Virus record (IMG/VR): IMGVR_UViG_3300037493_001386
Coordinates: 1-62,297 of that record
Source: a virus
Reading direction: 5' to 3' (one strand)
Length of the DNA: 62,297 nt
The notes beneath the pieces are model-generated. The model did no database searches, was not told the origin of the DNA, and saw only the letters and a program-made list of their open reading frames with translations. A program made the translations under genes and the position numbers. Below, one piece after another: positions 4,698 through 58,800 of this stretch (position 1 is the first letter of the stretch; each line of letters opens with the position of its first letter).

Positions 4698-5151
4698 ATT
4701 AGTTAGCCACATTGAATACTTAACTGGTAAGTCAATTAAGTTTAAAGAGATAGAAAATAGGTATGCCATTGGAGTTAAAAGATGGTTTCTTTGCGGAGGT
4801 GATTTGCCATCAATTGAAATAGCAAAGTATCTTGATATCAGCCATAATAAATTGACACTATTAATTCAGAAGCAAATGTCAAAAGTTACTGGTATAAAAC
4901 TTAAAGATGAAGCACCAATAGTTGATGTAATGTATACTCCATATTCATTAGAGAAATTATATCCTAAGTCTTACAGATTTGATTGGCAGCCAGTATATGA
5001 ATTAAACTATTATCTTTACCTCGCTAACAATTCAAGGGATCAAATAATTGATAATTACAAAGTATTTCTAAATGAGTCACGAGGTAGAGATATACAAAGT
5101 CATAGCAAGGTATCTTTCAATAAAATATCCAAAGGTAATATTCAGATTTGA
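4687..5151 (+). CDS. Conserved hypothetical protein, 154 aa
   Basis: Homologous to 40126-40590 in genome B. The segment around residues 35-65 (GGDLPSIEIAKYLDISHNKL) reads like a helix-turn-helix, so DNA binding is possible. The final 80 nt overlap the VRR-NUC gene in another frame, and this overlap is kept in genome B. Its C-terminus differs between the phages because the overlapping nuclease sequence constrains it. The function is unknown; a replication or recombination accessory role is inferred from the neighbours. Confidence 0.7.
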   Translation: MNPELVSHIEYLTGKSIKFKEIENRYAIGVKRWFLCGGDLPSIEIAKYLDISHNKLTLLIQKQMSKVTGIKLKDEAPIVDVMYTPYSLEKLYPKSYRFDWQPVYELNYYLYLANNSRDQIIDNYKVFLNESRGRDIQSHSKVSFNKISKGNIQI

Positions 5152-5455
5152 TTTTGCTGCTGGTATGTATCTGAGTCCATATATGGCAACAAAGCATAGG
5201 TCGCAAAATCCAATAAAAGGATATCCCGATTTATTTATTGCTTTACCTCGTGGAAAATTTGCTGGTCTATTTATTGAAATCAAAACTGAGAAAGCGAATC
5301 CATTTAAAAAGGATGGCACTTTGAAATCTAACGAGCATACAGAAAGACAAGCCGAAGTATTATCAATGCTGAATGAGGTTGGATACTATGCAGTATTTAC
5401 AAGTGGTGTTGACGAAACAATAAAAATTATAGAGAACTATATACATCAAAAATAA
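5072..5455 (+). CDS. VRR-NUC domain nuclease (Holliday-junction-resolvase-like)
   Basis: 127 residues that fit the VRR-NUC fold over their whole length: GYPDLFI (Asp53), IEIKTEK (Glu69, Lys71) and HTERQAEVL with Gln93 form the PD-(D/E)XK active site. Stand-alone phage versions are thought to act on branched DNA during recombination or before packaging. It overlaps the upstream gene by 80 nt in both genomes. The structured RNA follows within 20 nt. Confidence 0.85.
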   Translation: MSHEVEIYKVIARYLSIKYPKVIFRFDFAAGMYLSPYMATKHRSQNPIKGYPDLFIALPRGKFAGLFIEIKTEKANPFKKDGTLKSNEHTERQAEVLSMLNEVGYYAVFTSGVDETIKIIENYIHQK

Positions 5456-5460: not shown

Positions 5461-5468
5461 TATTTTAG
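5461..5468 (+). promoter_or_regulatory. Possible promoter for the structured RNA
   Basis: TATTTTAG resembles the -7 box with one mismatch and lies just before the RNA. The equivalent in genome B is TAACTTAG at 43820-43827. No convincing -33 element is seen, so this is tentative. Confidence 0.35.
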
Positions 5469-5580
5469 CAACATTCAGAGGTGGTATCCTGAATGCAACA
5501 AAAATATGTCGCCCTATGGTGACTGAGAGGCAACGATTAAAATCTGAGCCGATACCACCTCAGTCTTCATAGGGCATTTT
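5469..5580 (+). ncRNA. Two-hairpin kissing-loop RNA with terminator-like 3' stem
   Basis: Hairpin 1 pairs CATTCAG (5472-5478) with CTGAATG (5489-5495). Its whole 10-nt loop (5479-5488) is perfectly complementary to 5551-5560, which lies inside hairpin 2. Hairpin 2 pairs GCCCTATG (5511-5518) with CATAGGGC (5568-5575) and GACTGAG (5521-5527) with CTCAGTC (5559-5565), then runs into TTTTT. Genome B has the same structure at 43831-43936 with two compensatory base-pair changes. It ends about 15 nt before the initiator gene and may be a small RNA or a leader controlling that gene. Confidence 0.8.
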
Positions 5581-5594
5581 TAATTCTTATAACA

Positions 5595-6215
5595 ATGAAT
5601 AATCGGGACACTTGCATTTTTTATCGATCAATGTTTGAATCTATAAAGGAACTTCCAAAAGAGAATCAGGCAGAACTATACAATGCCATATTTGAATACT
5701 CTTTAGATTTTGTTGAACCTGAATTGGCTGGTCTATCAATGACAATATGGAGACTTATAAAGCCAGTACTGGAAAAAGGAAATACTAATTACATTAACGG
5801 AAGCAGACCGAAAGCGAAGCAGATAGTAAGCGAAACCGAAGCGAAACCGAAGCGAAGTAGAAGCAAAAGGCAAGCCTATAAGGATAAGGATAAGGATGTA
5901 GATATAGATAATGATATTATTGTTAAAGCACCATCTTTCAAGGCAATGACTAATGATGACTTAATAAATCAGATCAAACCATTTATAGAAAAGTACGGAA
6001 AGGACACTTGCAATGCTTTCTATTCATACTGGTCGGAACCACTTTCCAATGGTAGGATGAGATTGACAGAACAGAAGGCTTGGGATACCAGTAGAAGACT
6101 TTTCACTTGGAAACAGAGGGAGAAGCAGCCTGAATCTTCATATGTAAAAAAAGTACCAGTGCCTTTCAATCGCAGTAGTCAAGGGCAAACCTATGTAGGG
6201 GATGATGTGGTATAA
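5595..6215 (+). CDS. DUF6291-type protein, putative replication initiator
   Basis: 206 residues. The N-terminus (CIFYRSMFESIKELP to about residue 70) matches the DUF6291 pattern found in Bacteroidetes prophages, a winged-helix/DnaD-like initiator setting. A charged low-complexity linker (about 73-110, Lys/Arg/Asp) follows, then a conserved C-terminal helical domain (about 115-185) that ends near GQTYVGDDV. The linker is encoded by 11-nt iterons, as expected for an initiator gene that contains its own origin. The homologue is 43949-44587. The initiator role is inferred from layout, RNA, iterons and the downstream DnaB. Confidence 0.65.
   Translation: MNNRDTCIFYRSMFESIKELPKENQAELYNAIFEYSLDFVEPELAGLSMTIWRLIKPVLEKGNTNYINGSRPKAKQIVSETEAKPKRSRSKRQAYKDKDKDVDIDNDIIVKAPSFKAMTNDDLINQIKPFIEKYGKDTCNAFYSYWSEPLSNGRMRLTEQKAWDTSRRLFTWKQREKQPESSYVKKVPVPFNRSSQGQTYVGDDVV
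5813..5935 (+). repeat. 11-nt iterons plus AT-rich tract: candidate replication origin
   Basis: Repeats of AGCGAAnnnGA type lie at 5813-5823 and, back to back, at 5829-5839, 5840-5850, 5851-5861 and 5862-5872 (the last degenerate). An AT-rich stretch with ATAAGG repeats follows to about 5935. Because 11 is not a multiple of 3, the repeats cycle through reading frames and are not explained by a repeated peptide. Genome B has the same array at 44172-44226. Confidence 0.65.
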
Positions 6216-7613: not shown

Positions 7614-8990
7614 ATGACAAACCCACAACAAGCAATAATCGCAATATTAATGACTGGTGAAAACCATCAGGATTTAATGCCACAACTGGAAGAGCATCTC
7701 TTTAATGAGGTGCTCACATCAAGATGCTACAAAGTAATAAAGCGCACTATTGAAAAAGGACAGACACCTAATATGGTTAACTTCTTTAGTACTGCGAATG
7801 AACTTGATAAGTTTACACCTAAAGAAACATCTGCAATAGTTGGCTGGTCTAATAGTCTAACATATAACGAGCCAGTTAATGAATATATTGCAATCCTAAA
7901 GGACAATCATATTAAAAGATCAATAGGTAATATTATTACCGAGCAGTCTTTCGGACTATCAAATAATGTTGATGGCTATACAACTGCAACCGAAATAATA
8001 AAGTCATTAACTAATCTATTAGATACTGGAAGCAACTCAGATAATATTATTGATCTATCGGAATTAACTAATGAAGAAAGGGAATCATACTATCGTAGAG
8101 CAGCACTAACATTATCAGGAAAAACTACTGGATTAAATACTGGATTAAATGCTTTAAATAAATTTACTGGTGGTTTTCATCCTGAGTTTATTATAATTGC
8201 CGGTCGACCATCAATGGGAAAAACGGCATTGGCATTGTTTCACGGAATGAAAAGTGGCGAGGCTGGTATCTACTTTAATCTTGAAATGAATAAAAGCCAG
8301 TTATGCCAAAGATTAATTCTTCAGGAGGCTGGAGACACAATCCATTCTTCAAGACTTCGTGATGGCAATCTTAGCCAATCTGAATTGCACTCTTTTGAAA
8401 AGACTATTGGAAGTATCGAAAAGCAGCCATTCCTGATATATGATAAGGCAAGGTGTGGCGTACACGAAGCAATTAGAGTAATGAAGCGAGAGCATCGGAA
8501 AGGTAGGTGTAAGTGGGCAATAATTGATTACCTACAACTAATGACTATTGAGGGATTCAAAGGTGGCAATCGTGAAGCAGAAGTTGCTGAAATTAGCAGA
8601 ACATTAAAGGCAGCGCAAAAAGAGATTGGAATACCTATAATTGCCTTGGCGCAACTTAGCCGTGAAGTAGAAAAGCGACCTGATAAAAAACCTATACTAT
8701 CAGACCTAAGAGAATCAGGTTCTTTAGAGCAAGATGCAGATAGCGTTGCTTTTGTTTGGAGGCCATCGTATTATGGACTTAATGACGATAATGGCAATCC
8801 ATATACTAATAATATCTTTTATCTTTTTGAGAAGCATAGACAAGGCGCAACTGGTATTGTCGAATTTAGGCACTCACCAAATATGACAAACTTTACAGAT
8901 GTTACCAGTAATGATATTGGCAGCACATTTCTTCCACAACCTAAAGACCTAAGACATTATGCAGACAAAGATTGGGATGTACCATTCTGA
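7614..8990 (+). CDS. dnaB: Replicative DNA helicase, DnaB-like
   Basis: 458 residues, the usual DnaB size. There is an N-terminal helical domain (about 1-110), then the RecA-like C-terminal domain with Walker A GRPSMGKTAL (about residue 200), a hydrophobic strand with IIDYLQLM (Walker B), LAQLSREVEKRP and a SGSLEQDADSV loop. It unwinds the phage replication fork. No phage DNA polymerase is visible, so host polymerase is probably used. The homologue at 45111-46487 is closely similar. Confidence 0.95.
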   Translation: MTNPQQAIIAILMTGENHQDLMPQLEEHLFNEVLTSRCYKVIKRTIEKGQTPNMVNFFSTANELDKFTPKETSAIVGWSNSLTYNEPVNEYIAILKDNHIKRSIGNIITEQSFGLSNNVDGYTTATEIIKSLTNLLDTGSNSDNIIDLSELTNEERESYYRRAALTLSGKTTGLNTGLNALNKFTGGFHPEFIIIAGRPSMGKTALALFHGMKSGEAGIYFNLEMNKSQLCQRLILQEAGDTIHSSRLRDGNLSQSELHSFEKTIGSIEKQPFLIYDKARCGVHEAIRVMKREHRKGRCKWAIIDYLQLMTIEGFKGGNREAEVAEISRTLKAAQKEIGIPIIALAQLSREVEKRPDKKPILSDLRESGSLEQDADSVAFVWRPSYYGLNDDNGNPYTNNIFYLFEKHRQGATGIVEFRHSPNMTNFTDVTSNDIGSTFLPQPKDLRHYADKDWDVPF

Positions 8991-16948: not shown

Positions 16949-17070
16949 TGACAATTGTTGAAGGTGATGTAGTGGCATACAATCAACTTATGAATGGAGA
17001 TGTTGATTTATTTTTAACTAAATTTGAGCAGTTTATAAATACTCAACAACGTGGCAACAGTTTACATTGA
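16298..17070 (+). CDS. Tail chaperone, -1 frameshift extension product (gpGT-like)
   Basis: Reading shifts by -1 at the T run 16765-16771 and continues to a stop at 17070, adding about 100 residues that include MTIVEGDVVAYNQLM and LFLTKFEQFI. This extension lies past the zero-frame stop (16948) and is conserved as protein in genome B, where the same frame runs to 51928. It overlaps the tape measure start by 20 nt. In lambda a minor frameshifted product of this kind is required for tail assembly. Confidence 0.8.
16765..16771 (+). other. Programmed -1 frameshift slippery site (T TTT TTT)
   Basis: In the zero frame the codons are GAT TTT TTT ACA, so T TTT TTT satisfies the X XXY YYZ rule with perfect re-pairing. 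In genome B the run is eight T residues (51635-51642). Confidence 0.75.
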
Positions 17071-20000
17071 TTATGAAGCGAGAGCAGCATCGTTAAAAGC
17101 AGTAACCGATACCATTATTAATGCCAATAAACAAATTGGTGATAGTGCTGAAGTAGCAGCCAAAGAGGGAGCGGATGCCTATAAGTCAATGGGCAAAGCA
17201 ATGGGTGCTGCATTCTCATCGCAAGAGGTATCTAAGGCATTGAATAGTAACATTGCCAGTATAAATAAAAATCGTGATGCGCTAACTAAATTAACTGGTG
17301 AATCAATTAAGTTTGGTAAGGCAGCAATAACATTAGGCGGTCAAGTAAAGCAGAATGCATCTGAAGTATTAAAAGCAAAAGAGGCATTGGCAAAGTACCA
17401 ACAAACATTAAATGATACTGGTAAGGGAACAGATAATACAGAGAAGAAAACCCAGTCATTAAAAGGTAGATTGCGAGAATTAAAAGAACAATTATCCGCA
17501 CTTGAAACGGCTGGTCAAGAGGGATCAATGGCATTTGAAAAGTTAGCGGTTGAGGCTGGTAAACTTCAGGATCAAATAGGAGATACAACAGAACGAGTTA
17601 AAGTATTATCATCCGACACATTTAAGTTTGATGCTGCATTGGGTGCGGTTAAAGGAATTGCTGCTGGATTTTCAATAGCGCAAGGTGCTGCTGCTTTATT
17701 TGGTGAGGAGAATGAGGACTTAAATAAAACAATTGCAAAGACTCAGGGAGCATTAGCATTACTTTCAGGATTGCAAGAGATTGCAACATTAGTAACTGGT
17801 CAAGGCGCAACAAAGATTGCCTTACAGAATCTATTTATGAAAGATAAAATAGTCACTACTACTGCTGCTGCTGGTGCGGTTACAACATTAGCGGTTGCCG
17901 AAGAAGGTGCTGCAGTTGCAACATTGGCAACTAAGAAAAGTCTTGACCTATTAAAGATTGCGATTGCTGGAACTGGTATTGGATTATTAGTAATTGGATT
18001 AGGTGCATTGTATGCAATCTATCAAAGAAATTCAGAGGCCTCTAAGAAATTTCAAGAAGCATTAGATGGAACTAATGTTGCAATAGGCAATGCTAAAATA
18101 TTACTTAAAGAATATTCAAACGATCAAATTAATTTGAATAATCAAATCGAAGTTGCTGCTGGAAGAATGAAGCAAAGTGATGCAGATAAGGATAAAGTAA
18201 AAAGAGATTCTAATGCTAAATTTAAAACAGAATCAAAAGCATTATATGCATCGCAAGTTCAATTAGATAATCAAGTAATTGAATTGAATAATAAAATAAT
18301 GTTCCAAGAAGTAGAAAGGCAAAAGAATGGAGCATTGGGCGCAAAGGGTTCTGATGCAGCAATTATTGCCACAAGAAAAGAAATTGCAGTAATTCAAGAA
18401 AAGTACAAAGAAGCGCAGAAAGGAATTAATGATTTAAGAGAAGCAAATAAAAAGTCCGAAGGAGCGCAAATTAAACTGATTGATGATGCAGAAATAAAAA
18501 GATTAAAAGATGAAGCATCTGCAGCATACGATAAAGCAAAGCAGATATCAGATAAATTAATTCAAGATAGATTAAATGCAGAACTAAATGGTCTTAAATT
18601 AATTCAGGTAATTAATGGAGATTCATTTAAGAACAAAGAAGATATATTAAAAAAAGAAGCAGAAATCGAAAGGGCATCAGCAACTGCCAGTATCACTAAT
18701 AAACAATTAAGGGCATCAACACTACTACTGATTGATGCTAAATTGGCTCAGGATACAGAACAATTAAAACTGGATGAACAAAACAAAGTAATTGCTAATG
18801 AGGTTAAATTGATTGAAGCGAAAAAGGTATTAAATACTGCAACATTAGGTGATGAAATTAAACAAGCAGAACTATCATTTAATATTGAAAAGTCTAATCT
18901 TGAAGCAAAGATTAAATTAAATCAGGCATCATCTGCAGACCTTGAATTACTTAGTGCTAATAACGAAAAGAAGATTCAGGATATAAAGAACAGAGGTATA
19001 CAACAAGAGTATACTTTAAGAGTTCAGTCATTCGAACTAAGAAAGATGTTAGGCGCAACTACATTAGCAGAAGAACTAAGTTTAATTCGTGCAAGAGCAG
19101 AAGCGGAGTTAAAGGCAAATGAATTATCAAATAAAACATTGCCACAAAAGGAAGCGGATAGGAAAGCAATCATTGCCAAGACTGATAATGATATCACTCA
19201 GGCAAAAGCAGTAGAAGCAAACAAACGTATTGATATTGAGAATGCAGAGGCTGAGGCAGCGTTAATACTTGGAACTGCTACATATGATCAAAAGGTAAAA
19301 TTAATAGAAGACGAGGGTCTAAAACAGAAGAATTCACTTGATAAAAAACTATTAGGTGAGGAAGCATATAATGCAGCGGTCTTAAAGATTAATGCAGACA
19401 CTACTGCCAAACTAAAATTAGAGCAAGATGCAAGAGTACAAAGTGTATTTGCATTACTAAATGCTGCATCAGGTGTATTTCAGGAATTAAATGCTTTGGG
19501 TCAACAACAGACAGATGAAAGAATTGCTGGAGTAACGGCTGCAAGTGAGGTTGAACTAAAAGCAATTAATAATAGTACTGCGCTGGAAACTGAAAAAGCA
19601 AGACAAAGAACTGCGCTGGAGAAAAGAACACAAAGAATAATTCGTGAGGATAAAAGAAGGCAAGCGGAATCTGATAAAGCATTAGCATTATTTCAGGCAA
19701 TTGTTGGTAGTGCATCAGCGGTTGCATCTGCTAAAACATTACCATTAAAGATATTAATTGCGGCGGCTGGAGCAATTCAGATAGCAGCCATATTATCAAG
19801 ACCAATACCTAAGTTTGAAAAGGGAGGGGAGATAGGTGGCAAAAGACATAGTGAGGGAGGTACAATTGTAGAAGCAGAACAAGGAGAATATATCGTTAAT
19901 AGAAAGCAAACATCGGCACATAGAAAAGAATTAATGGCAATGAATCAATCATCTGAATCATTTAAAAAATTAATTAATGATAGGTATGTTCGACCAGCCA

Positions 20001-20176
20001 TTATGAATTATATGTTGAATTCAAAGAACAAGGAAATGGGGGTAAATGTAAATGCTACATTAAACTCAAAAACTATGGAGACTGAATTAAAAGGATTGCG
20101 AAAAGATATAAGAAATAGTTCTCAGGTATTTAGTAATAACAAAAATGATTCACGTTACTTATGGCACAAGAATTAA
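17051..20176 (+). CDS. Tape measure protein
   Basis: 1041 residues from GTG 17051, the largest gene. Long coiled-coil stretches (about 120-180 and 380-880) flank a hydrophobic segment near 300-320 (AIAGTGIGLLVIGLGALYAIY), and there is a second hydrophobic stretch near 900. A conserved C-terminus carries FEKGGEIGGKRHSEGGT and GEYIVNRKQTSA. It sets tail length; at the usual ratio this predicts a tail of about 150 nm. GTG is chosen because genome B starts the same way. Confidence 0.9.
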   Translation: MATVYIDYEARAASLKAVTDTIINANKQIGDSAEVAAKEGADAYKSMGKAMGAAFSSQEVSKALNSNIASINKNRDALTKLTGESIKFGKAAITLGGQVKQNASEVLKAKEALAKYQQTLNDTGKGTDNTEKKTQSLKGRLRELKEQLSALETAGQEGSMAFEKLAVEAGKLQDQIGDTTERVKVLSSDTFKFDAALGAVKGIAAGFSIAQGAAALFGEENEDLNKTIAKTQGALALLSGLQEIATLVTGQGATKIALQNLFMKDKIVTTTAAAGAVTTLAVAEEGAAVATLATKKSLDLLKIAIAGTGIGLLVIGLGALYAIYQRNSEASKKFQEALDGTNVAIGNAKILLKEYSNDQINLNNQIEVAAGRMKQSDADKDKVKRDSNAKFKTESKALYASQVQLDNQVIELNNKIMFQEVERQKNGALGAKGSDAAIIATRKEIAVIQEKYKEAQKGINDLREANKKSEGAQIKLIDDAEIKRLKDEASAAYDKAKQISDKLIQDRLNAELNGLKLIQVINGDSFKNKEDILKKEAEIERASATASITNKQLRASTLLLIDAKLAQDTEQLKLDEQNKVIANEVKLIEAKKVLNTATLGDEIKQAELSFNIEKSNLEAKIKLNQASSADLELLSANNEKKIQDIKNRGIQQEYTLRVQSFELRKMLGATTLAEELSLIRARAEAELKANELSNKTLPQKEADRKAIIAKTDNDITQAKAVEANKRIDIENAEAEAALILGTATYDQKVKLIEDEGLKQKNSLDKKLLGEEAYNAAVLKINADTTAKLKLEQDARVQSVFALLNAASGVFQELNALGQQQTDERIAGVTAASEVELKAINNSTALETEKARQRTALEKRTQRIIREDKRRQAESDKALALFQAIVGSASAVASAKTLPLKILIAAAGAIQIAAILSRPIPKFEKGGEIGGKRHSEGGTIVEAEQGEYIVNRKQTSAHRKELMAMNQSSESFKKLINDRYVRPAIMNYMLNSKNKEMGVNVNATLNSKTMETELKGLRKDIRNSSQVFSNNKNDSRYLWHKN

Positions 20177-22194
20177 AGTTTTTATTAGATGGTGAAGATA
20201 GAGGGCAACCTACTAACTATATTGATTTTGGTTTAAGTATAACAGAAGATACAACTATTCAGGCAAGGATTGTTTCTTTTGATAATCCTTTAATATTTAT
20301 TGGAGAATCATACGAATACATTTTTGGTAAAGTAATTAGTGGAGAACATTGCGATTTGATTAATGTTCAAGTGCAATACAAATGTGGTAATATTTGGAAG
20401 AAATTAGTTGATGGCTATTTTATAATTACAGAATCTGATTTTGATTTAGATCGGTGTTCAGTTCAAACAAAGTTATACGATGAATCATTTTCAACTAAAA
20501 TAAATAATAATAAATCTATTCCATTTTATTCCGACTCTAATATATCCAAGAATTTATTTCCAATTGTTGCGCCAATAGTTACACCATTAAGGATATTTAA
20601 ACCGTCGGATGGTACTTACTACCAAGATAGTTGTGGATGTATTAGTGTATACGATGCATTTAAACATTTAGTTAATTGTATGTCAGATGGATTAATAGAT
20701 TTTGATTCTAACTTTTTTAAGCCAGTATATAATAATCCACCATTTGTTCCGCAGAATTATGTTGTAACAAATGCAGAAGCATTAAGGAATAAATCATTTG
20801 TGCATACTCAATTAGTATTTGATAAGTTATTCATAGCATTAAATAAAAAATTAAGATTGGGAATGGGGTTTGAAAAACAACCTAATGGCAGACCACTATT
20901 AAGAATTGAAGATGCTGAATACTTTTTTGATTCAACACCATCAGTAACATTAGATGACCAGCCTGATATCACTATGCGATATGATACTGAAAGTTTAATT
21001 GCTGGTGTTGACTTTGGATCAAATCCTTTCTTTAATAAAGGGGATTGTAATAATGGCAGTACACCTTGTTCATTTTTGCAGACTGCATTCTTTGGATTTC
21101 GTGATGAATCATTCGGTATACTTGGTACTTGCAATACATCTAAAATGTTAAACCTTGTAAGTGATGATGTAATATTTGATACTAATATTATTGAGGATAT
21201 AATAGTCCATAATAATTTAGATTACGAATTAAATATGATTGTAATGTATTGTGATGGTAATAGAGCATTACCAGTAAGCACATCATTTACAGCAATACAA
21301 GGTGACCCATTGGGTGCTGGTAATACAATATATAATGAACAATTAATAAATGAAAGATGTTCTGCTAATTGGTTAGGCGGTTATCCAAATTCTTTGATTC
21401 AGTATATAGTTGGATTTGATCCAGCACTAACACCATTTAATGCAAGAATGCTTAATCTATTACCAAGTGACCAACAATGGACTATATATCCAGTACCTCC
21501 AAATTCTCCACAATACTATTTAGCAGAAGAAGGTGTTCCAATTAAATATTTAGCCGAGATAAGTGATCCCAATAACTTATTTGACGGACAGAAATATACC
21601 GTTCCATTTTCAGGAACATATACATTTACTGCGAAGATAGCATTGCAGTTATTATCAGATACACCAGTTAATAGATATACAAAAGCAATTATTAGGCAAT
21701 ATAATTCTATTGATGTTGAAATAGGTTCTTATAGCAGCGGAGTATTTAATGATACTGGATTAGGAAATATAAGAATAGCAGTAACTGCAACATTTCCTTG
21801 TAATGCTGGAGACTTCATTAGGGTAGATTTAATGGAGTATTATACAGATGCCAATCTTCACGTAGCAAGAGTTCAAGATATAATAACATATGCAATAGAT
21901 GAGGAAGGTGATTTTTTATACTCAGAGTTCTTTGGTAGTGGAGTGCCATTTGGTAATACAGATTTGCAGCCAGTTGATCCAAATCTAATTAGGAATGTAT
22001 TATACAGATTTGAACGGCCTCTGTCAATGGATGAGATTAATAGTATTATAAATGCCACAAGTAATCCAATTCTAATTGGTAGGTACGATGACTTATTAAG
22101 AACAATACCAGCGCATATTAAATCAATAAATATTGATAGTATTATAAAGCAATCTGCTAAATTTGATTTACGTTCAAATAAAATATTAATATGA
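20161..22194 (+). CDS. Tail protein (distal tail/baseplate candidate), 677 aa
   Basis: Follows the tape measure with a 16-nt overlap, the usual place of the distal tail protein. The first 120 residues are beta-rich (ELKFLLDGEDRGQPTNYIDF start), the middle is variable, and a conserved block near the C-terminus (VPFGNTDLQPVDPN, YRFERPLSMDEI, GRYDDLLRTI) matches genome B. The middle diverges strongly between phages, as in adhesin-bearing tail-tip proteins. No enzymatic motif seen. Confidence 0.7.
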   Translation: MAQELKFLLDGEDRGQPTNYIDFGLSITEDTTIQARIVSFDNPLIFIGESYEYIFGKVISGEHCDLINVQVQYKCGNIWKKLVDGYFIITESDFDLDRCSVQTKLYDESFSTKINNNKSIPFYSDSNISKNLFPIVAPIVTPLRIFKPSDGTYYQDSCGCISVYDAFKHLVNCMSDGLIDFDSNFFKPVYNNPPFVPQNYVVTNAEALRNKSFVHTQLVFDKLFIALNKKLRLGMGFEKQPNGRPLLRIEDAEYFFDSTPSVTLDDQPDITMRYDTESLIAGVDFGSNPFFNKGDCNNGSTPCSFLQTAFFGFRDESFGILGTCNTSKMLNLVSDDVIFDTNIIEDIIVHNNLDYELNMIVMYCDGNRALPVSTSFTAIQGDPLGAGNTIYNEQLINERCSANWLGGYPNSLIQYIVGFDPALTPFNARMLNLLPSDQQWTIYPVPPNSPQYYLAEEGVPIKYLAEISDPNNLFDGQKYTVPFSGTYTFTAKIALQLLSDTPVNRYTKAIIRQYNSIDVEIGSYSSGVFNDTGLGNIRIAVTATFPCNAGDFIRVDLMEYYTDANLHVARVQDIITYAIDEEGDFLYSEFFGSGVPFGNTDLQPVDPNLIRNVLYRFERPLSMDEINSIINATSNPILIGRYDDLLRTIPAHIKSINIDSIIKQSAKFDLRSNKILI

Positions 22195-23858
22195 GTATTA
22201 CCTCAATACCAAACCAGCCAATATTATTTCATTCAGAAGATGAAATAATTGCACCTTGCGAAGAATGCGGAAGTTCTAATTATAATCAGTTAATTGATTT
22301 TAATGATAAGGTTTTCTTTCAATTAGAATCAACTGCTTGCGAACAATCCCCGATGATACCATTTGACACTTTATTGCAAGTTTGGTCAGATACAGAAGGT
22401 AATATTTGTGGTGATGGAGTATTGGCTGGTTCGTATGCACAATATTTATACATTGATTACTCATACGAATTATACTCCATAACATTTACAATTCTGAATA
22501 TTGAAGAAGGTACCTTAAATATATCAATGGATGGCAGCACAAACTATGAGTTATCATTGGCTGGAACTTATACATTATACTTTAATAATGTAAATACAAA
22601 TAATGATAGTTATGTTATATTATTAATTCAATCAAGTACATTCGTAGGTTGCTTTGATGCTAATAGTATTTTAGTAAAAGGTATTGCATCAAGAAACGAA
22701 ATAAAAGTTGGTATTGTTGATCCTATTACACTTCAACAATTAGATGTTATTTCTCCACAATACACAATAATAGATAATAAGATTATTGCTTCATTTGATT
22801 TCATAGATGTTGATGTTACTACTGGATGCTATCGACTTGCAATAGCAGATTTTTGTGAAAATACTTGCAGCCAGTTTAGAGTAATTAATAATCTTTTTAA
22901 TTTATACTTCAGTATTCCTTATGGTTGGAGCGCAGTAACTGGATTCGGTGCAACATATAGTTTTAATCAAAATCTATTTTGTGCGGAAACACCATATGAA
23001 GATGGGGAGATTACATTAGCATCTGTATCAGAATTATGCGAAGGGAAATTCTATTACATATCAATAGTAATTGAAAGCACAACAAATAATTTAATTTATG
23101 CTCAAATAGGTAATAGTACAATTCAGTTTCCATATAATGCAACGGGATACCAAACTATTGGTATAACTGCTGGAAGTCCATCATTAATTTATGGAATGAG
23201 GTTAACATTATTTATTCAGAATAATGGCAATGGACCGGGAAGTACTTGCATTTCAAAGGTGGATGTTCAGATTGATGATAGTAATATCCAATGGAATAAA
23301 TACTCAGATATAATTAGTTTGGGCGATTACAGCGATTCGTGCAACTATTATAAGATTGAGGGTTGCAATACACAAAACCAGTTTAATCTTGCGTTTAATG
23401 GCAGCGTATTTATGCCAATGGTTAGATTAGAGGGAAGACGAGTGAAACCACAATATGTAACTAATGCAAATACATTTAGATATGCATCAGGTAAATGGTC
23501 GGCAAACTATGTCAATAGAATAAAACAATGGACGTATCATTTTGGCAGACTGCCTGAATACATACTTGACTTTCTATCAACCATATTCTATTATGATAAT
23601 TGCTATGTGAATGGAGTATTAATGTTTCCACAAGATAACCAGTTCCCAACTATTGACTGGTCGGATGCTGATACATACTTAGGATCATTCAACATTGACT
23701 TAGTTGAAAAACAAAATAATGTTATTAAAGTACAATGTGCTGATTCTAATGCTACTTGTTTGCCATCGGTAATAGGATTAGACGAACCATATTTATTATC
23801 TGAGGATGGTATTATTTTAAATACACAAGATTCAATTAATTTGTATTCCGAAAATTAA
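22191..23858 (+). CDS. Tail protein, 555 aa
   Basis: Overlaps the previous stop by 4 nt. A conserved N-terminus (TSIPNQPI, CEECGS) and a strongly conserved C-terminal third (QFNLAFNGS, MVRLEGRR, YVTNANTFRYASGKWSANY) flank a diverged beta-rich centre. The pattern suggests conserved tail-docking ends and a variable, possibly receptor-facing middle. The homologue is 57052-58719. The order between the tail tip and the tube protein is unusual for lambda-like phages but the same in both genomes. Confidence 0.7.
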   Translation: MSITSIPNQPILFHSEDEIIAPCEECGSSNYNQLIDFNDKVFFQLESTACEQSPMIPFDTLLQVWSDTEGNICGDGVLAGSYAQYLYIDYSYELYSITFTILNIEEGTLNISMDGSTNYELSLAGTYTLYFNNVNTNNDSYVILLIQSSTFVGCFDANSILVKGIASRNEIKVGIVDPITLQQLDVISPQYTIIDNKIIASFDFIDVDVTTGCYRLAIADFCENTCSQFRVINNLFNLYFSIPYGWSAVTGFGATYSFNQNLFCAETPYEDGEITLASVSELCEGKFYYISIVIESTTNNLIYAQIGNSTIQFPYNATGYQTIGITAGSPSLIYGMRLTLFIQNNGNGPGSTCISKVDVQIDDSNIQWNKYSDIISLGDYSDSCNYYKIEGCNTQNQFNLAFNGSVFMPMVRLEGRRVKPQYVTNANTFRYASGKWSANYVNRIKQWTYHFGRLPEYILDFLSTIFYYDNCYVNGVLMFPQDNQFPTIDWSDADTYLGSFNIDLVEKQNNVIKVQCADSNATCLPSVIGLDEPYLLSEDGIILNTQDSINLYSEN

Positions 23859-23943
23859 TATATTTGCTCATCTTTTTGCACCATCGTAGGTTTAACGGAA
23901 GCAACCTTTAATAGCGACTGAAACAACTTAAATCTATACTACA
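23859..23943 (+). promoter_or_regulatory. Promoter and structured leader of the tube gene
   Basis: TATATTTG at 23859-23866 is a -7 box. The leader contains TTTTTGCACC and a GTAGGTT/AACCT hairpin (23886-23907) followed by TTTAATAG. The leader of genome B (58717-58800) has the same elements, and the capsid leader (30068-30096) has a related hairpin, suggesting strong or stabilised transcripts for abundant virion proteins. Confidence 0.65.
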
Positions 23944-24483
23944 ATGGGCTGCGCCTCATATTGCGAAACTGGACTTGAAACGCACGATTTAGTGCCTTGC
24001 GGTCAATATAAACTTGGCGGTGTTTCCGCTATTATTATCGGTGCTTGTGGAGCAGTGTTGGCTGTTCCAACTGATCCAATTGAAATTCAAGCATTATTAA
24101 CTTCAGGAGATGCAGTCTTGGTTGAAGATATCCGTTTTGCATTACCAGCGGGTTCTCCAATTCAGGTGGATTCACCAGTAGGTTGTGGCACTCAGATTCG
24201 TATCAACGAAGACCGAACTGCTACTCTTTACGATGCCAATGTTACCGACCAAAATAATTCATTTTATAATTCATTAAACTCTCAAAAGGTTGGATGGATT
24301 ATGGCTTATTTATGCGACTCAGGTAACGTAATCTATATCGACCCACCAGTTGGTATTACAACCTCTGCAAACTTTATTATTCCTGAGCAGAACAACGAAC
24401 TTCAGCGTTATGAAGTAACATTTAGTTGGAGACAAAAAGAGATTCCAACTCAGTTTGCTGCACCGGCTGGAATATTTAGTTAA
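23944..24483 (+). CDS. Major tail tube protein candidate, 179 aa
   Basis: A beta-rich protein of the size of siphovirus tube subunits with its own promoter and leader. It is one of the best conserved proteins between the two phages (PAGSPIQVDSPVGCG, RINEDRTATLYDA, QRYEVTFSWRQKEIP shared). Several Cys residues are conserved. The tube role is inferred from size, conservation and separate promoter. The stop overlaps the next ATG. Confidence 0.65.
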   Translation: MGCASYCETGLETHDLVPCGQYKLGGVSAIIIGACGAVLAVPTDPIEIQALLTSGDAVLVEDIRFALPAGSPIQVDSPVGCGTQIRINEDRTATLYDANVTDQNNSFYNSLNSQKVGWIMAYLCDSGNVIYIDPPVGITTSANFIIPEQNNELQRYEVTFSWRQKEIPTQFAAPAGIFS

Positions 24484-25436
24484 TGGAATTAGAAATTAAC
24501 ACTAACGATATTGCCACATCTTCTTCGGAGGGTGTGGTACTATTTGCATTTGGCAAGACTGCATACTATCAAGCAGCATATAATCTTGCATATTCAATTA
24601 AGTACCATTCACCATCAGTTAAGATTGCCCTATTTGTTGAAGACATCAATAAATGCAATAATTCTACTGGAGACATCAACACATATGTTGATTCAATAAA
24701 TCAAATCGAAAGTTCCGACCTTTATGTTAATGGGAAATTAGACCCAGCAATGTTAAAGGTGTCTATATATAAGTATCTGCCATTTAAAATTAATCTGTAT
24801 TTAGATGTTGATGCGGTATGCCTTAAAAACATTCAGCCATTAATAGATGATTTGATTAAAACAAAAAGGCACTACATCAGCCATTGCTTGGGTTATCATA
24901 CTATTGATTTAGGAAGAGAAATCCAATCAATGGTTTGGGCTTGGGCGGATGATATTTGGGAGCATTTTAAATTAGATCCTGATACAATACTACCATCTAT
25001 AAATAGCAGCATTCAATTCATTAAAAAATGTAAAAAGTCTAAAGACTTATTTGGAGTTCTTAGAATACTTTACACTACAAATCAATTGCCATTAAAAAAA
25101 TTAAAAAATAAATGGGGAGGTGGTCAACCTGATGAGTTGTATATGGATGTTGCTTTGGCAATGACAAAGTATGACCCATCTTATAAAAATGGAAATGTTA
25201 TTAGTGGAAGTAAATCGCAAAGTGGTTTCATTCACTTTGCATCAGTTCGTGGTTTGTCATTTCAGGAAGTAACGGATAACTATTATTTCCAATCATACTA
25301 TGGTGGTCGTAATTATACATCAAGATTCTATACTGAATGGCTTGAGAGACTTTTAAGAGTAATGATGAAGAAAGAAAACAAAACACATCAATTTCATATA
25401 GACCGAATCATTGGTAATAAATACGTGAACAAATGA
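24483..25436 (+). CDS. Glycosyltransferase, GT-A fold
   Basis: 317 residues. The N-terminal Rossmann-like pattern (VVLFAFGKTAYYQAAYNLA) and a DxD metal site (LYLDVDAVC, Asp108/Asp110) fit a GT8-like GT-A transferase, and the C-terminal half contains GGGQPDELYM. It is cytoplasmic, with no signal or membrane segment. It is unusual inside the structural block between the tube and portal genes and is kept in genome B (59340-60293), so it may glycosylate a virion protein or a host surface glycan. Confidence 0.75.
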   Translation: MELEINTNDIATSSSEGVVLFAFGKTAYYQAAYNLAYSIKYHSPSVKIALFVEDINKCNNSTGDINTYVDSINQIESSDLYVNGKLDPAMLKVSIYKYLPFKINLYLDVDAVCLKNIQPLIDDLIKTKRHYISHCLGYHTIDLGREIQSMVWAWADDIWEHFKLDPDTILPSINSSIQFIKKCKKSKDLFGVLRILYTTNQLPLKKLKNKWGGGQPDELYMDVALAMTKYDPSYKNGNVISGSKSQSGFIHFASVRGLSFQEVTDNYYFQSYYGGRNYTSRFYTEWLERLLRVMMKKENKTHQFHIDRIIGNKYVNK

Positions 25437-26035
25437 AAAATACTACTACCAAAAAACCGAAAGTAAAATCAAATAAAACTGATTATGATTTGCCAGTTGT
25501 AGAAATTGTTACAACAGAAACATTTAAAGAAGTTGCTCGTCACGAATGGAACTCAGAAGATGAAGTTGGTCAGTTCTTGGGATCACTTATTAAAATGTCT
25601 AAGTATAATACTGCTCTTGAAATTGGAGTATTTGAAGGCGAAACATCGCAGCATTTAATTAATGCTATTCCAAAAGGAGGTCAATATATTGGCATTGACA
25701 TCAATGATTATCGTACTGAAAAAACAAAATCATTAATGGCAGAGGGTGGCAAGTCAATTGATTTTATTCTTGGCAATTCACACGATGAATTATTAAAGTT
25801 ACCAAAGAATCATTTTGATTTGATATTTGTTGATGCCGACCATTCTTGGGTATCAGTATTACCTGAATTTAAACTTGTAGAAAAACTGGTAAGTACTGGA
25901 GGTGTAATTGTGTATCACGATACAATACATATTTCAGCACCTAAAAAACTTGTTGAGTATGCGAGATACCGAAACTATAAAACAACTACCTTAAACACTC
26001 CCGAAGGACGTGGATTGTCAATATTACATAAATGA
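25433..26035 (+). CDS. Class I SAM-dependent methyltransferase
   Basis: 200 residues. After a Lys-rich disordered N-terminus, motif I is ALEIGVFEGETSQHL (about 62-76), followed by YIGIDINDY (acidic residue binding the SAM ribose), FDLIFVDADHSW and GGVIVYHDT, the layout of Methyltransf_24-type enzymes. These act on small molecules or sugars rather than DNA. The 4-nt overlap with the glycosyltransferase implies a joint modification step. The homologue is 60290-60889. Confidence 0.8.
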   Translation: MKNTTTKKPKVKSNKTDYDLPVVEIVTTETFKEVARHEWNSEDEVGQFLGSLIKMSKYNTALEIGVFEGETSQHLINAIPKGGQYIGIDINDYRTEKTKSLMAEGGKSIDFILGNSHDELLKLPKNHFDLIFVDADHSWVSVLPEFKLVEKLVSTGGVIVYHDTIHISAPKKLVEYARYRNYKTTTLNTPEGRGLSILHK

Positions 26036-29188: not shown

Positions 29189-29903
29189 AGCGGAAGAACT
29201 ATCTTCTAAAATTGGAAGGGTTACTGGAAGCATTACTAATGTTGCAAGAAAAGCATTCGAACCATTTGGCATTGTACTTACAGAAGAAGACTTTAAGGAT
29301 AAGAAAGTTGAAGAAGTAATTCGCAGCGCATCAGAAAGAGCAAAAGAATCATTTGAAACACAAAAAGATGAGTGGGAAAAACGTGCATCAGGAAATGGCT
29401 CAGAAACATTGATCAAAGAATGGGAGTCAAAATACAAATCACTTGAGAAAAAACATAATGAAGTGGATTCTGCAAGGCAAGATGTAATGGCTCAATTTGA
29501 TAAGTATAAGGAAAAGGTAAAAGAGGAATCTAAGATTAATAACATTAATAACATATTTGAAAAAGAGTTAACTGCTATTAAAATTGATCCATCAGTTTCC
29601 GATATTACTATAAGAGGATTTAAATCTGTTATTGCAGAAAAATATATTTTTGATATTGAAGAAGATGGCAATGCAATAGTGAAAGACAAGAAAAGTGGCG
29701 AGAGATTAAAGTCATCTGCAAAGGCTGGTTCGTTTTTAGGTATTAATGATATCCTATTAAAAGAAGCAACTGATGCTGGTATTATTCAAAAGAATGTGCA
29801 TCAAGGAAAACCAATTAATCAAAGAGGTGCTTACATTCCAGCCATCGAACCGATACAAAACAATAAAGTAAAATCTATTAATCCTCGTTTTTTCGGAGTT
29901 TAA
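29088..29903 (+). CDS. Putative capsid scaffolding protein, 271 aa
   Basis: A highly charged protein with a long coiled coil (about 30-160, rich in Glu and Lys), directly before the major capsid gene, as expected for a scaffold. The C-terminal region (about 165-271) is more compact and ends in a basic NNKVKSINPRFFGV. No protease motif is seen, so maturation would be by scaffold release without a phage-coded protease in this stretch. Confidence 0.7.
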   Translation: MKEAEALELVKFLNLESAESIEEAKEKFTQHWIKAEELSSKIGRVTGSITNVARKAFEPFGIVLTEEDFKDKKVEEVIRSASERAKESFETQKDEWEKRASGNGSETLIKEWESKYKSLEKKHNEVDSARQDVMAQFDKYKEKVKEESKINNINNIFEKELTAIKIDPSVSDITIRGFKSVIAEKYIFDIEEDGNAIVKDKKSGERLKSSAKAGSFLGINDILLKEATDAGIIQKNVHQGKPINQRGAYIPAIEPIQNNKVKSINPRFFGV

Positions 29904-29909
29904 ATAATA

Positions 29910-29917
29910 TATATTTG
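29910..29917 (+). promoter_or_regulatory. Promoter -7 box (TATATTTG) upstream of terminator
   Basis: A full match to TAnnTTTG. The transcript would meet the terminator at 29968-29997 after about 50 nt, so either a short RNA is made or the site acts with read-through into the capsid gene. Confidence 0.5.
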
Positions 29918-29967
29918 CATTGTTCATCGGTTTGCTTTTTATGCGAAAGTAGATTTGTATTAATTCT

Positions 29968-29997
29968 AAAAAAGGCAGCAGCAATGTTGCCTTTTTT
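29968..29997 (+). terminator. Intrinsic terminator between scaffold and capsid
   Basis: GGCAGC at 29974-29979 pairs with GTTGCC at 29986-29991, flanked by A6 and T6 runs. This stops read-through from the head operon and leaves capsid expression to its own promoter. Confidence 0.85.
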
Positions 29998-30005
29998 ATT
30001 TAAAA

Positions 30006-30124
30006 TATATTTGTAAATTAGCATCGCAAAAAGACAAGTAGTCAATCGTGACTCTAACACGATAAAAGTAGGTAGAACTCTCAACCTTTTAATGAGAATT
30101 AAACTAACTATTAAATCGACTAAA
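30006..30124 (+). promoter_or_regulatory. Major capsid promoter and long leader
   Basis: TATATTTG at 30006-30013 is the -7 box. The leader of about 105 nt contains a GTAGGT/AACCT hairpin (30068-30087) followed by TTTTAATGAG, like the leaders of the tube genes. A strong dedicated promoter with a stable leader fits the most abundant virion protein. Confidence 0.7.
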
Positions 30125-41317: not shown

Positions 41318-41328
41318 TCAATAAAAAA

Positions 41329-41409
41329 ATTGACACGATGTCAATGGGGTGGGCGGTTGTTACAAATACAAAATAATTTAAGGGAGTAATTGAACTGCCC
41401 ACTTTTTTT
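41329..41409 (+). ncRNA. Two-hairpin RNA/terminator before the helicase gene
   Basis: A perfect hairpin ATTGACA-CGA-TGTCAAT (41329-41345) is followed by GTGGGCGGTT (41349-41358) pairing with AACTGCCCAC (41393-41402) over a 34-nt loop and T7. The layout of hairpin, long-loop hairpin and T-run parallels the kissing-loop RNA, but no loop-loop complementarity is obvious. It may be a terminator or a small RNA. Confidence 0.5.
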
Positions 41410-41432
41410 AACTCACAATAAAAATAACTACT

Positions 41433-43819: not shown

Positions 43820-43827
43820 TAACTTAG

Positions 43828-43941
43828 CACCATTCAGAGGTAGTATCCTGAATAGATTGTAAAACATTGTCACCCTATGGTGACTGAGAGACTAAGAGTA
43901 AAATCAAGGTCGATACTACCTCAGTCCTCATAGGGTATTTT
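43828..43941 (+). ncRNA. Kissing-loop RNA (B copy) with compensatory changes
   Basis: CATTCAG (43831-43837) pairs with CTGAAT (43848-43853). The loop AGGTAGTATC (43838-43847) is perfectly complementary to GATACTACCT (43912-43921). The second stem pairs ACCCTATG (43872-43879) with CATAGGGT (43929-43936) and GACTGAG (43882-43888) with CTCAGTC (43920-43926), followed by a T run. Against genome A, one loop G to A change is matched by C to T in the partner, and the basal G-C pair is replaced by A-T. Confidence 0.8.
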
Positions 43942-43948: not shown

Positions 43949-44587
43949 ATGAATAGCAGAGATACTTGCATCTTTTATCGGTCAATGTTTGAATCAATAA
44001 AAGAACTACCTAAAGAGAATCAGGCTGAGTTATACAATGCCATATTTGAATACTCATTAGACTTTGTTGAGCCTACTTTGAGTGGTCTATCAATGACCAT
44101 ATGGAGATTGATAAGACCAGTATTAGAGAAAGGTAATACTAACTATATCAATGGAAGTAAACCGAAATCAAAGCAAACAATAAGCGAATTAGAAGCGAAA
44201 GTGAAGCGAATTAGAAGCGAAAGCCAAGCCTATAAGGATAAGGATAAGGATAAGGATAAAGATGAAGATATAGATAAGGATAAAGTTAAAAGTGCTAAAG
44301 CACCATCATTCAAATCATTTACACCTCAAGACCTCATTAACCAAATGAAACCACTAATAGATAAGTTTGGCAAAGATACTTGTAATGCTTTCTACTCTTA
44401 TTGGTCTGAACCATTAGCCAATGGTAAGATGAGATTGACAAATGAAAAGGCTTGGGATACACATAGAAGGTTAGCATCTTGGAAACAAAGAGAAAAACAA
44501 CCTACTACCAACTTTGTCAAACAATTACCAGCGGTCTTCAATCGTAGTTCACAAGGTCAAAAATATGTAGGTGACGATGTGATTTAA
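43949..44587 (+). CDS. DUF6291-type putative replication initiator (B copy)
   Basis: 212 residues, homologue of 5595-6215 with the same N-terminal domain and C-terminal domain ending GQKYVGDDVI. The linker is slightly longer because of extra ATAAGG units that encode Lys-Asp repeats. The initiator role is inferred as for genome A. It is separated from dnaB by two small genes. Confidence 0.65.
   Translation: MNSRDTCIFYRSMFESIKELPKENQAELYNAIFEYSLDFVEPTLSGLSMTIWRLIRPVLEKGNTNYINGSKPKSKQTISELEAKVKRIRSESQAYKDKDKDKDKDEDIDKDKVKSAKAPSFKSFTPQDLINQMKPLIDKFGKDTCNAFYSYWSEPLANGKMRLTNEKAWDTHRRLASWKQREKQPTTNFVKQLPAVFNRSSQGQKYVGDDVI
44172..44290 (+). repeat. 11-nt iterons plus AT-rich tract (B copy of origin candidate)
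   Basis: Four back-to-back AGCGAAnnnnA repeats at 44183-44193, 44194-44204, 44205-44215 and 44216-44226, preceded in phase by a degenerate one at 44172-44182. ATAAGG hexamers and an AT-rich stretch follow to about 44290. The array has the same period and place as in genome A. Confidence 0.65.
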
Positions 44588-51818: not shown

Positions 51819-51928
51819 TGACAATAGTTGAGGGTGACGTGGTTGCATATAATCAACTCATGAGTAATGATGTTGACTTATTTTTAACTAAATTTGAGCA
51901 GTTCATTAAGACTCAACAACGTGGCTAA
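51168..51928 (+). CDS. Tail chaperone, -1 frameshift product (B copy)
   Basis: A -1 shift at 51635-51642 gives a frame that stays open to 51928, with the same extension as in genome A (MTIVEGDVVAYNQLM, LFLTKFEQFI). Conservation beyond the zero-frame stop (51818) shows that the second frame is translated. Confidence 0.8.
51635..51642 (+). other. Programmed -1 frameshift slippery site (T8)
   Basis: An eight-T run where genome A has seven. The zero-frame heptamer T TTT TTT is kept and the following codon starts with T. Confidence 0.75.
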
Positions 51929-54900
51929 AGTTATAATTGAATACGAAGCTCAAGCAGCATCACTCAAACAAGTAACAGATACTATTATCAATGCTAACAA
52001 GCAGATAGGAGATAGTGCTGAGTTAGCATCTAAGGAAGGCTCAGATGCTTATAAAGCTATGGGTAAGTCTATGAGTGCTGCCTTTAGTTCACAAGAAGTT
52101 AGCAAGGCAATCAATAGTAACATAGCTAACATCAACAAGAATCGTGATGCACTAACTAAGTTAACTGGTGAATCAATTAAGTTTGGTAAGGCTGCTGCTA
52201 CATTAGGTGGTCAAATCAAACAGAATGCAGCACAAGTATTACAAGCAAAGGAGGCATTATCTAAGTATCAATTAACATTAGCAGATACTGGTAAAGGAAC
52301 TGACACTACAGAAAAGAAAACACAATCACTCAAGGGTAGACTAAGAGAATTAAAAGAGGAACTATCAGCACTTGAGTCTGCTGGTCAAGAAGGTACACAA
52401 GCATTTGAAAAGTTATCTATTGAGGCTGGTAAGCTACAAGACCAAATAGGTGACACACAAGAAAGGGTTAAGGTACTTGCATCCGACACGTTTAAGTTCG
52501 ATGCAGCAGTTGGTGCGGTCAAAGGTCTTGCTGCTGGGTTTGCAATTGCACAAGGTGCTGCTGCATTATTTGGAACTGAATCTGAAGAACTTAATAAGAC
52601 CATTGCTAAGACTCAGGGTGCATTAGCATTACTAACTGGGTTGCAAGAAATAGCAACATTGGTAACTGGTCAAGGTGCTACTAAGATAAGTTTGCAGTCT
52701 ATCTTTATGAAAGAAAAGATAGTTGTAACAAATGCTGCTACTGGTTCAGTTACTGCATTAGCAACGGCAGAAGAGGGTGCTGCGGTTGCTACATTAGCAA
52801 CTAAGAAAAGTCTTGACTTGTTAAAGGTTGCAATAGCTGGTACTGGTATTGGTTTACTTGTGATAGCATTAGGTGCATTGTATTCTATCTATCAAAAAAA
52901 CTCAGAGGCATCTAAGAAGTTTAATGACTTGATGAAAGAATCTGAAGAGGCTAATAAGAATGCAACGGCTGCTATCAAAGAACAAAGAGCAGCACAAAGT
53001 GACCTTAATGACCAAATATTAGTTAGTTCAAAACAAATAAGTCAAGAAGAGGCTGATAGGAGAAAAACAAGAAGGGATGCATCAAAGGAGTTAGAAGCAC
53101 AACAAAAGCCACTATTTTTAAATCAAGCTAAACAAATCTCACAAGAAAAAGAATTAGCTAATAAGATTGAATTTAAGAAAGCACAAATTGATGCAGCATC
53201 TAAGTCATCAAGGGATAATGCTGCAATTAACTTATCAACTTATGTATCTGAATTAAAAAACTTAGAGACTCAAAGAGTTGCAACTAACAAAGCATTGAAT
53301 GATACTAAGGCAAGTATTAAAGATTTAAGAGCAGAATCAAATAAAACAACTGGTGGTAAAATTGAACTTATTGATGCTGCTGAAACACAAAGATTAAAAG
53401 ATGAGGCAAAAGCAGCAGCAGATAATGCAAAACAGATAAGTGACAAAGCAATACAAGATAGGATAACTGCTGAACTTAATGGTCTTAAATTGATTGGAAT
53501 CGTTAATGGTGAATCATTCAAGAATAAAGAAGACATCTTAAAGAAAGAGGCTGAACTTGAAAGAGCATCAGCAAAAGCCAGTATAACAAATAAAGCATTA
53601 AGAGCATCTACACTACTACTCATTGATGCTAAGTTAGCACAAGATACTGAGCAACTTAAACTTGATGAACAAAACAAACTTATCTCTAATGAAGTTAAGT
53701 TGATTGAGGCTAAGAAGATATCAGGCAAGGCAACAATAGAAGATGAAATCAAACAAGCAGAATTATCATTTAACATTGAAAAGAGTAACCTTGATGCAAA
53801 GATTAAATTAAATCAAGCATCTGCTGGTGACCTTGAAGTATTGACTGCTAATAATGTCAAGAAGATTCAAGATATTAGAAACAAGGGTATACAAGAAGAG
53901 TTAACACTAAGAGTTCAGGCATTTGAACTACAAAAGATGTTAGGTGTTACCACCCTCGAAGATGAACTATCATTGATACGTGCGAGGGCTGAAGCAGAAC
54001 TAAGTGCTAATGAACTATCAAATAGTACACTTGCAGTTAAAGAGGCTAATAGGTTAAGTATTATAGCTAAGACTGACAAACAGATTACAGATGCTAAGGT
54101 AGTTGAGGTCAACAAACGTATTGACCTTGACAATACTGAAGCACAAGCAGCGGTAACATTAGGTACATCAACATACGACCAGCGAGTTAAATTGATTCAA
54201 GATGAAGGTCAAAAGCAAATCAACTTACTTGATAAGAAACTATTAGCTGAAGAGGAATACAATGCAGCGGTGGTTAAGATTAATGCAGATACAACTGCTA
54301 AGTTGAATGTTGAACAACAAGCACGAGTTGATAAGGTATTTGAATATGGTAATGCTATTATTTCAGCATTTACTGCTTTAAATGAATTAAGTCAACAAGC
54401 AACTGAGCAAAGGGTAGCAGACATCACAACATCAAGTGAGGCTGAATTAAAAGCCATTAATGAATCAGTTGAATCAGAAGCTTATAAACAACGGCAAAGG
54501 GAGAACCTAGAAAAAAGAACTAATAGAAAAATTGCAGCTGAAAAAACAAAACAAGCAAATCAAGATAAGGCATTAGCAATATTTCAAATTGCACTCAATA
54601 CTGCATCATCTATTATTAAAACTGGAGCAGAGTTAGGTTATCCAGCAGCTATACCATTTCAAATAGTTGCTGGTATTGTAGGTGCTGCACAAATAGCAAT
54701 TGCATCCGCTAAAACACCACCAAAATTTGAACGTGGTGGTGAGATTGGAGGTCAAAGACATAGTCAAGGTGGTACTATGGTAGAAGCAGAGCAAGGTGAG
54801 TACATCGTAAACAGAAAGCAAACGTCCGCACATCGTAGAGAATTGAATGCATTAAATCAATCCTCTGATGCCTTTAAGAAACTAATTCAAGATAGGTATG

Positions 54901-58719: not shown

Positions 58720-58800
58720 ATTTGTATATCTTTTTGCACCCAGTAGGTTTAAATGTTACAACCTTAAATAGTAACATCAATAACTTTAAATCTATATAAA
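58717..58800 (+). promoter_or_regulatory. Promoter and structured leader of the tube gene (B copy)
   Basis: TAGATTTG at 58717-58724 is the -7 box and overlaps the stop of the tail gene. The leader keeps TTTTTGCACC, GTAGGTT/AACCT (58743-58764) and TTAAATAG. Confidence 0.65.

Follow-up and report, generated by a model that had tools for sequence, protein, structure and literature searches.

Kissing-hairpin RNAs precede a probable replication initiator gene in uncultivated phages

In the leaders of the IncI-alpha/ColIb-P9 repZ, IncB and IncL/M plasmids, the loop of a first hairpin pairs with a strand of a later hairpin ahead of the initiator gene, and small changes in the kissing loops of IncK1 and IncK2 plasmids create compatible groups (PMC10724649). 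In attenuators of the pT181 type, a terminator hairpin lies between the promoter and the rep gene. Phages offer further parallels, namely, the HK022 put RNA, with hairpins immediately after an early-operon promoter (PMC9378689), the phi29 pRNA, a structured, phage-encoded RNA in the range of 110-170 nt with kissing loops, and the lambda OOP RNA, a short, terminated transcript next to the initiator gene O. Each of these traits recurs in the element described here, a kissing-hairpin RNA of about 110 nt found ahead of a probable initiator gene at about 5472-5581 on the + strand of the viral contig IMGVR_UViG_3300037493_001386 (62,297 bases; the window, i.e., the whole stretch of DNA analysed). 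The contig holds two related phages, each with a copy of the RNA. Across positions 1-62297 of the window, about 37 kb of one phage is followed by about 25 kb of the second, with similar blocks of genes around 17051-26035 and again around 51894-60889; the arrangement is either chimeric or a genuine concatenation. The features of the two copies, the second belonging to phage B, are as follows.

5072-5455, upstream nuclease-like gene, matching PHROG families of Holliday junction resolvases and endonucleases
5461-5468, + strand, predicted -7 promoter box TATTTTAG (Bacteroidota consensus TAnnTTTG)
5472-5495, + strand, P1 hairpin, CATTCAG (5472-5478) with CTGAATG (5489-5495), all 7 pairs showing double changes across the family
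5479-5488, + strand, P1 loop, AGGTGGTATC, corresponding to A followed by GGTGGTATC
5480-5488, + strand, L1, the loop strand of the kissing helix, in the family mostly [GAC]-G-U-N-R-N-A-N-C
5496-5510, + strand, A-rich linker from P1 to P2, with a nearly invariant AAAA core
5511-5575, + strand, P2 terminator hairpin, enclosing P3 and K
5511-5518 (GCCCTATG) and 5568-5575 (CATAGGGC), + strand, P2a, the terminator stem, paired across the family
5521-5526 (GACTGA) and 5560-5565 (TCAGTC), + strand, P2b, paired across the family
5527-5528, + strand, unpaired GA between P2b and P3, in 77 of 77 aligned sequences (a count partly fixed by the search pattern; the GA is also kept in loci found by protein)
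5529-5550, + strand, P3 hairpin, GGC (5529-5531) with GCC (5548-5550), often with an inner helix, supported by covariation
5551-5559, + strand, K, the partner strand of L1, abutting P3 and P2b with no unpaired base on either side
5560-5581, + strand, predicted intrinsic terminator, comprising the 3' strand of P2b (5560-5565), TT, the 3' strand of P2a (5568-5575) and the U-run TTTTT (5577-5581)
5595-6215, + strand, DUF6291 gene (Pfam PF19808, E 1e-14), with 11-bp iteron-like repeats at 5828-5868
7614-8990, DnaB-type helicase gene, a few genes downstream of the DUF6291 gene
43820-43827, + strand, predicted -7 box of the second copy, TAACTTAG
about 43824/43831-43945, + strand, second RNA copy (phage B)
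43839-43847 (GGTAGTATC) and 43912-43920 (GATACTACC), + strand, L1 and K of phage B, respectively
43949-44587, + strand, phage B DUF6291 gene, its 11-bp repeats lying at 44182-44221

An earlier note on this DNA had claimed that the 10-nt loop of the first hairpin is completely complementary to a segment inside a second hairpin that ends in a T run. The claim is exact, with the P1 loop being fully complementary to GATACCACCT (5551-5560). Across the family, the kissing helix comprises 9 bp (5480-5488 with 5551-5559), the tenth pair not being conserved because the T involved pairs in P2. Even with the kissing helix left out, the nested fold is unusually stable (z of -4.2; none of 200 shuffles as stable). 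The L1 and K 9-mers find no further match anywhere in the 62,297-nt window, such that other loop targets within the window were rejected. The 'genome B' in which the earlier note had seen compensatory changes is the second phage of the same record, whose RNA copy is 81% identical to the first. Both changes described, one in the kissing helix and one at the base of the second stem, are present, as is a third that had been missed, converting GGC/GCC of P3 to GAC/GTC. The accompanying statement that all helices are preserved needs qualification, in that the outermost P1 pair is C-A in phage B and not every pair is thus kept.

Loci were collected from viral contigs in three ways, namely, by DUF6291 protein search, by DNA pattern and by protein alignment; the alignment used on the viral contigs covered a narrower set of DUF6291 proteins, the full range of types being too diverse for a locus search. 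In this manner, the kissing-hairpin RNA was found at 115 loci of uncultivated phages, corresponding to 89 distinct sequences, with one copy per phage record, or two where a long record appears to hold two phages. Some letters are fixed by the pattern searches, and loci found only by protein reveal a broader family. P2b reads TTTAC/GTAAA in one such locus (L170), the loops differ in two (L193 and L204) and, in two more (L210 and L211), the architecture is kept with almost no sequence similarity (22 bits).

When 53 sequences were aligned without reference to structure, 98.7% of the pair cells were canonical, with double changes at 19 of 33 pairs and 222 compensatory cells; sliding the partners along this alignment as a control brought pairing down to 29-48%. 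Alignment of 77 sequences to the model likewise gave canonical pairing in 98.7% of 2,530 cells, with double changes at 25 of 33 pairs and 319 compensatory cells (30-48% pairing in the sliding controls). In a tree-aware test, in which the changes of each column were placed randomly on the tree, 6 of 9,730 column pairs were significant. All six are helical and belong to one compatible fold, with three lying in the kissing helix (the strongest), one in P2, one in P3 and one in the inner P3 helix. The covariation that had earlier been read from two genomes is, as such, overwhelmingly supported in the wider alignment. In the 77 sequences, the kissing helix is 98.5% paired and contains no G-U pair. 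Across the family, G-U pairs outnumber A-C mismatches by 77:5, therefore identifying the plus-strand RNA as the selected molecule and ruling out a DNA-level structure or a minus-strand RNA. Together, these comparisons show a structured RNA, with predicted helices P1, P2 (the terminator) and P3 locked by the 9-bp kissing helix.

The promoter consensus of Bacteroidota reads TAnnTTTG at -7 (PMC7366714), and a TANNTT[TA][GA] box begins 10-13 nt 5' of P1 in 88 of the 89 distinct elements (per-position background of 0.0017), being kept although the upstream genes vary. Given this position, transcription is predicted to start at the base of P1. The hosts of the carrier phages are probably Bacteroidota, as the earlier note had assumed. 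P2 is followed by a U-run of 4-9 in 87 of 89 elements, and an ORF starts 0-14 nt past the U-run in all 86 cases scored. The transcript of about 110 nt that had been guessed at fits the distance from predicted promoter to predicted terminator. On the minus strand, the conventional -7 box was seen in 17 of 88 elements, which is less than the background of 29% and hence no enrichment; control by an antisense RNA, left without a minus-strand promoter signal, was rejected. Nor was a conserved leader peptide found, with 35 of 89 elements containing no internal ATG ORF and ORF lengths not being conserved; leader-peptide attenuation was accordingly rejected.

Examination of the neighboring genes revealed a DUF6291-like gene directly or one gene after the element in 70 of 72 assessable loci, out of 74, two (L124 and L151) being cut off at the element. 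One of the two exceptions (L080) shows no DUF6291, and the other (L090) is cut before the gene in the stretch considered, with a protein search locating the DUF6291 gene further on in that contig (L207). Conversely, among 70 loci found by protein only, the element is strong in 62 and present in a diverged form in two; in another two (L169 and L203), the sequence breaks off at the gene. The element is absent from the remaining four (L208, L209, L213 and L220), where the two flanking genes are directly adjacent, and the module therefore sits at an operon junction. Identical RNAs precede very different DUF6291 proteins (27% identity for L064 and L117; almost no similarity for L071 and L098). The RNA is therefore not matched to the protein, making autoregulation by the cognate DUF6291 protein, or its sensing as a ligand, unlikely.

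DUF6291 is a Pfam family annotated as of unknown function. The gene nonetheless probably encodes a replication initiator, since a helicase gene lies nearby, 11-bp repeats occur within the gene in both phages and weak structural matches of the protein model among viral proteins include a 'Replisome organizer'; the model is of low confidence (mean pLDDT 66) and, as query, found no PDB match. The placement of the RNA upstream of an initiator gene in the earlier note thus agrees with this probable identity. The 11-bp iteron-like tandem repeats (AAGCGAAACCG at 5828-5868; AAGCGAATTAG at 44182-44221) are accompanied by ATAAGG repeats inside the DUF6291 genes, and these repeats form a candidate replication origin. 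Alignments of the DUF6291 proteins (A3 and A4) show an N-terminal domain that is conserved inside subgroups and C-terminal parts that are swapped among unrelated types. Entire initiator genes are also seen to be exchanged beneath an unchanged RNA.

The kissing helix is the fastest-changing part of the fold. When changes were counted on a backbone tree from which the kissing columns had been left out, 24, 22 and 18 fell at kissing pairs 4, 6 and 8, respectively, as compared to 0-10 at P2 pairs, 16 at one P3 pair and 18-19 at the two basal P1 pairs, which are often unpaired. The allele switches at kissing pairs 4, 6 and 8 are always Watson-Crick swaps and lie far above most other pairs in number. 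Among relatives with a backbone difference of less than 4%, these positions differ by 17-20%, as opposed to 1-4% for positions in the unpaired linker and the P3 loop. In 16 disjoint close pairs, changes were seen at 14 of 144 kissing pairs and at 53 of 1,493 other sites, a rate about 2.7 times higher (P of 0.002) despite the two substitutions needed for each kissing change, albeit one based on few pairs and to which recombination could contribute. For the 12 commonest alleles, predicted duplexes between L1 and K have mean energies of -13.2 kcal/mol in cognate combinations and -5.0 kcal/mol in non-cognate ones, and such alleles, being predicted to pair selectively, could serve as orthogonal regulators. 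In every locus found by protein, loop positions 3-5 read U-N-R, a putative U-turn of the kind found in loops for antisense recognition. Avoidance of a shared allele by phages of the same sample was not seen (4 of 20 pairs shared versus 2.5 expected, in what is a weak test), and mutual exclusion therefore finds no support.

Taken together, the element is read here, with a probability of about 0.5, as a promoter-attenuator leader of the initiator operon in which the kissing helix would be the specificity element, with both the regulation and the action in trans being inferred. RNA polymerase would start at the base of P1 and the nascent RNA would fold, with most transcripts ending at the U-run and the read-through fraction serving as initiator mRNA. 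The gap of 0-14 nt between U-run and start codon leaves no room for a promoter, such that the initiator would be reached only via read-through of the terminator, whether from the element's own or an upstream promoter, hence the proposed attenuation. mRNAs of Flavobacterium johnsoniae lack a Shine-Dalgarno sequence and structure near the start codon tunes their translation (PMC6847099); P2 could therefore also affect translation of the read-through mRNA. More speculatively, the kissing helix may set the frequency of read-through, and the released RNA may offer its loop and strand in trans to nascent copies, leading to allele-specific negative feedback on initiator synthesis. Such feedback would explain why the kissing pairs diversify under strict Watson-Crick pairing. 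When the 'small RNA or switch' proposed in the earlier note is considered, the closeness of the U-run to the ORF that follows (0-14 nt) favours a leader or attenuator acting in cis. The switch fares less well: no mutually exclusive (antiterminator) pairing with covariation appeared among the 9,730 column pairs tested, leaving a classical two-state switch unsupported, and any effect would be kinetic or intermolecular.

Of the alternatives, a stable, autonomous 110-nt RNA acting in trans elsewhere, be it on a host RNA or protein, in phage assembly or in defence, with its position before the initiator reflecting inherited linkage in a compact genome, is a possible and serious rival to the leader reading. 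Such an RNA would account for the complete transcription unit, with promoter and terminator, for the single copy per phage and for the presence of the same RNA among varied upstream and downstream genes. Yet DUF6291 lies almost always within one gene downstream, even in loci found by the RNA pattern alone, while other neighbors change, and the lack of other matches to L1 and K in the window also speaks against it. A riboswitch-like or protein-binding leader, which would sense a small molecule or a host protein and use the kissing helix to build its binding fold, seems unlikely. The compact pseudoknotted fold, the invariant unpaired GA, the A-rich linker and the terminator before a gene would suit such a role, but the helix that would shape the pocket is the most variable part, no alternative pairing is conserved and the RNA occurs in a single gene context.

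It is quite improbable that the RNA is a primer or R-loop transcript at a phage origin, as are ColE1 RNAII or the T4 origin transcripts. While it adjoins an initiator gene carrying 11-bp iteron-like repeats, the terminator would end the transcript ahead of those repeats, the element stays unchanged as one initiator type replaces another and no copy could be detected in G029 and G030, two phage records of 38-39 kb. Least probable of all is an insulating terminator and promoter without regulation, with the kissing helix merely stabilizing the terminator; both signals are present and other terminator hairpins precede start codons in these phages, for example near 6800, but a long-range helix of 9 bp that stays strictly Watson-Crick while double changes recur is not something that plain terminators maintain.

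Within the attenuator-leader reading, a further proposal casts the kissing helix as an identity code written in RNA and subject to diversifying selection. Copies released at the terminator would recognize nascent leaders of the same allele, damping initiator synthesis and so sensing the genome number of the phage itself and of competitors with the same allele. This proposal is at present doubtful. If true, it would resemble plasmid incompatibility groups, except that a single sense-strand RNA would be both probe and target. A long-range helix that switches alleles faster than the remainder of the RNA under strict pairing raises the question of whether orthogonal RNA-RNA recognition serves phages, as it does plasmids, in controlling replication and in telling relatives apart.

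Searches against Rfam 15 yielded no match at the gathering score for the window or for 12 further loci, including diverged copies, the best sub-threshold hit (E of 0.09) involving the minus strand and a microRNA family. As such, a known RNA family was rejected, in line with the earlier statement that no phage family of this shape was known, and a self-cleaving ribozyme likewise found no Rfam family match in the same set. Searches of 84,980 prokaryote genomes, 50,697 records of cultured phages and 72,556 plasmids yielded no copy, which suggests that the carriers are virulent, uncultured phages.

Other structured elements were noted in these phages. A second, different RNA occurs in related phages (L225, G016:24780-25100; L226, G035:1950-2280; L224, G001:32550-32900), with a -7 box, a GATAG-loop-CTATC hairpin and a terminator hairpin about 400 nt before a long ORF. 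The loops GGGGG, TGAGGG and GGTGCGAC are complementary to the terminator-hairpin loops CCCCC, CCCTCA and GTCGCACC, respectively; a strict pattern detects this RNA in 3 of 34 records. In the window itself, 29896-30030 contains a promoter-like TATATTTG, about 60 nt, a terminator GGCAGCAGCAATGTTGCCTTTTTT, a promoter-like TTTGTAAATTAGCA and then a 360-aa ORF, while a large-loop hairpin (GTGGGCGGTT...AACTGCCCACTTTTTTT) at 41325-41410, before the helicase-like gene of phage B, is perhaps a structured leader.

When set against the systems described above, the phage RNA differs from each. HK022 put lacks an intrinsic terminator and acts to suppress termination (PMC9378689), whereas the RNA considered here ends in a U-run in 87 of 89 elements. 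The ring-forming loops of phi29 pRNA pair between molecules at the packaging motor and the RNA is encoded beside packaging genes, whereas here both partners lie in one molecule, encoded beside replication genes, between the nuclease-like and DUF6291 genes. Lambda OOP, transcribed antisense to cII, works by antisense pairing, unlike the sense-oriented RNA here. Type III antitoxins (ToxI-like) are tandem pseudoknot repeats before a toxin gene, whereas the present RNA is a single copy; no toxin family match was found among the flanking genes scanned. In pT181, a countertranscript chooses between exclusive pairings; in the phage RNA, neither a countertranscript promoter nor a second pairing was seen. 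The analogy to plasmid replication RNAs that the earlier note had drawn holds for the layout, with a loop and a later strand forming 9 bp (98.5% paired) before DUF6291, as in the IncI, IncB and IncL/M leaders. It does not extend to the antisense RNA over the first hairpin or to the translated leader peptide of those plasmids, since neither an antisense promoter nor a conserved leader peptide was found, the phage RNA having instead a promoter and terminator of its own. The kissing-hairpin RNA is thus a new family that may work like the plasmid rep leaders without being a member of them. It adds a widespread, deeply covarying RNA, tied to a gene that probably starts DNA replication, to phages in which gene control is almost unknown.
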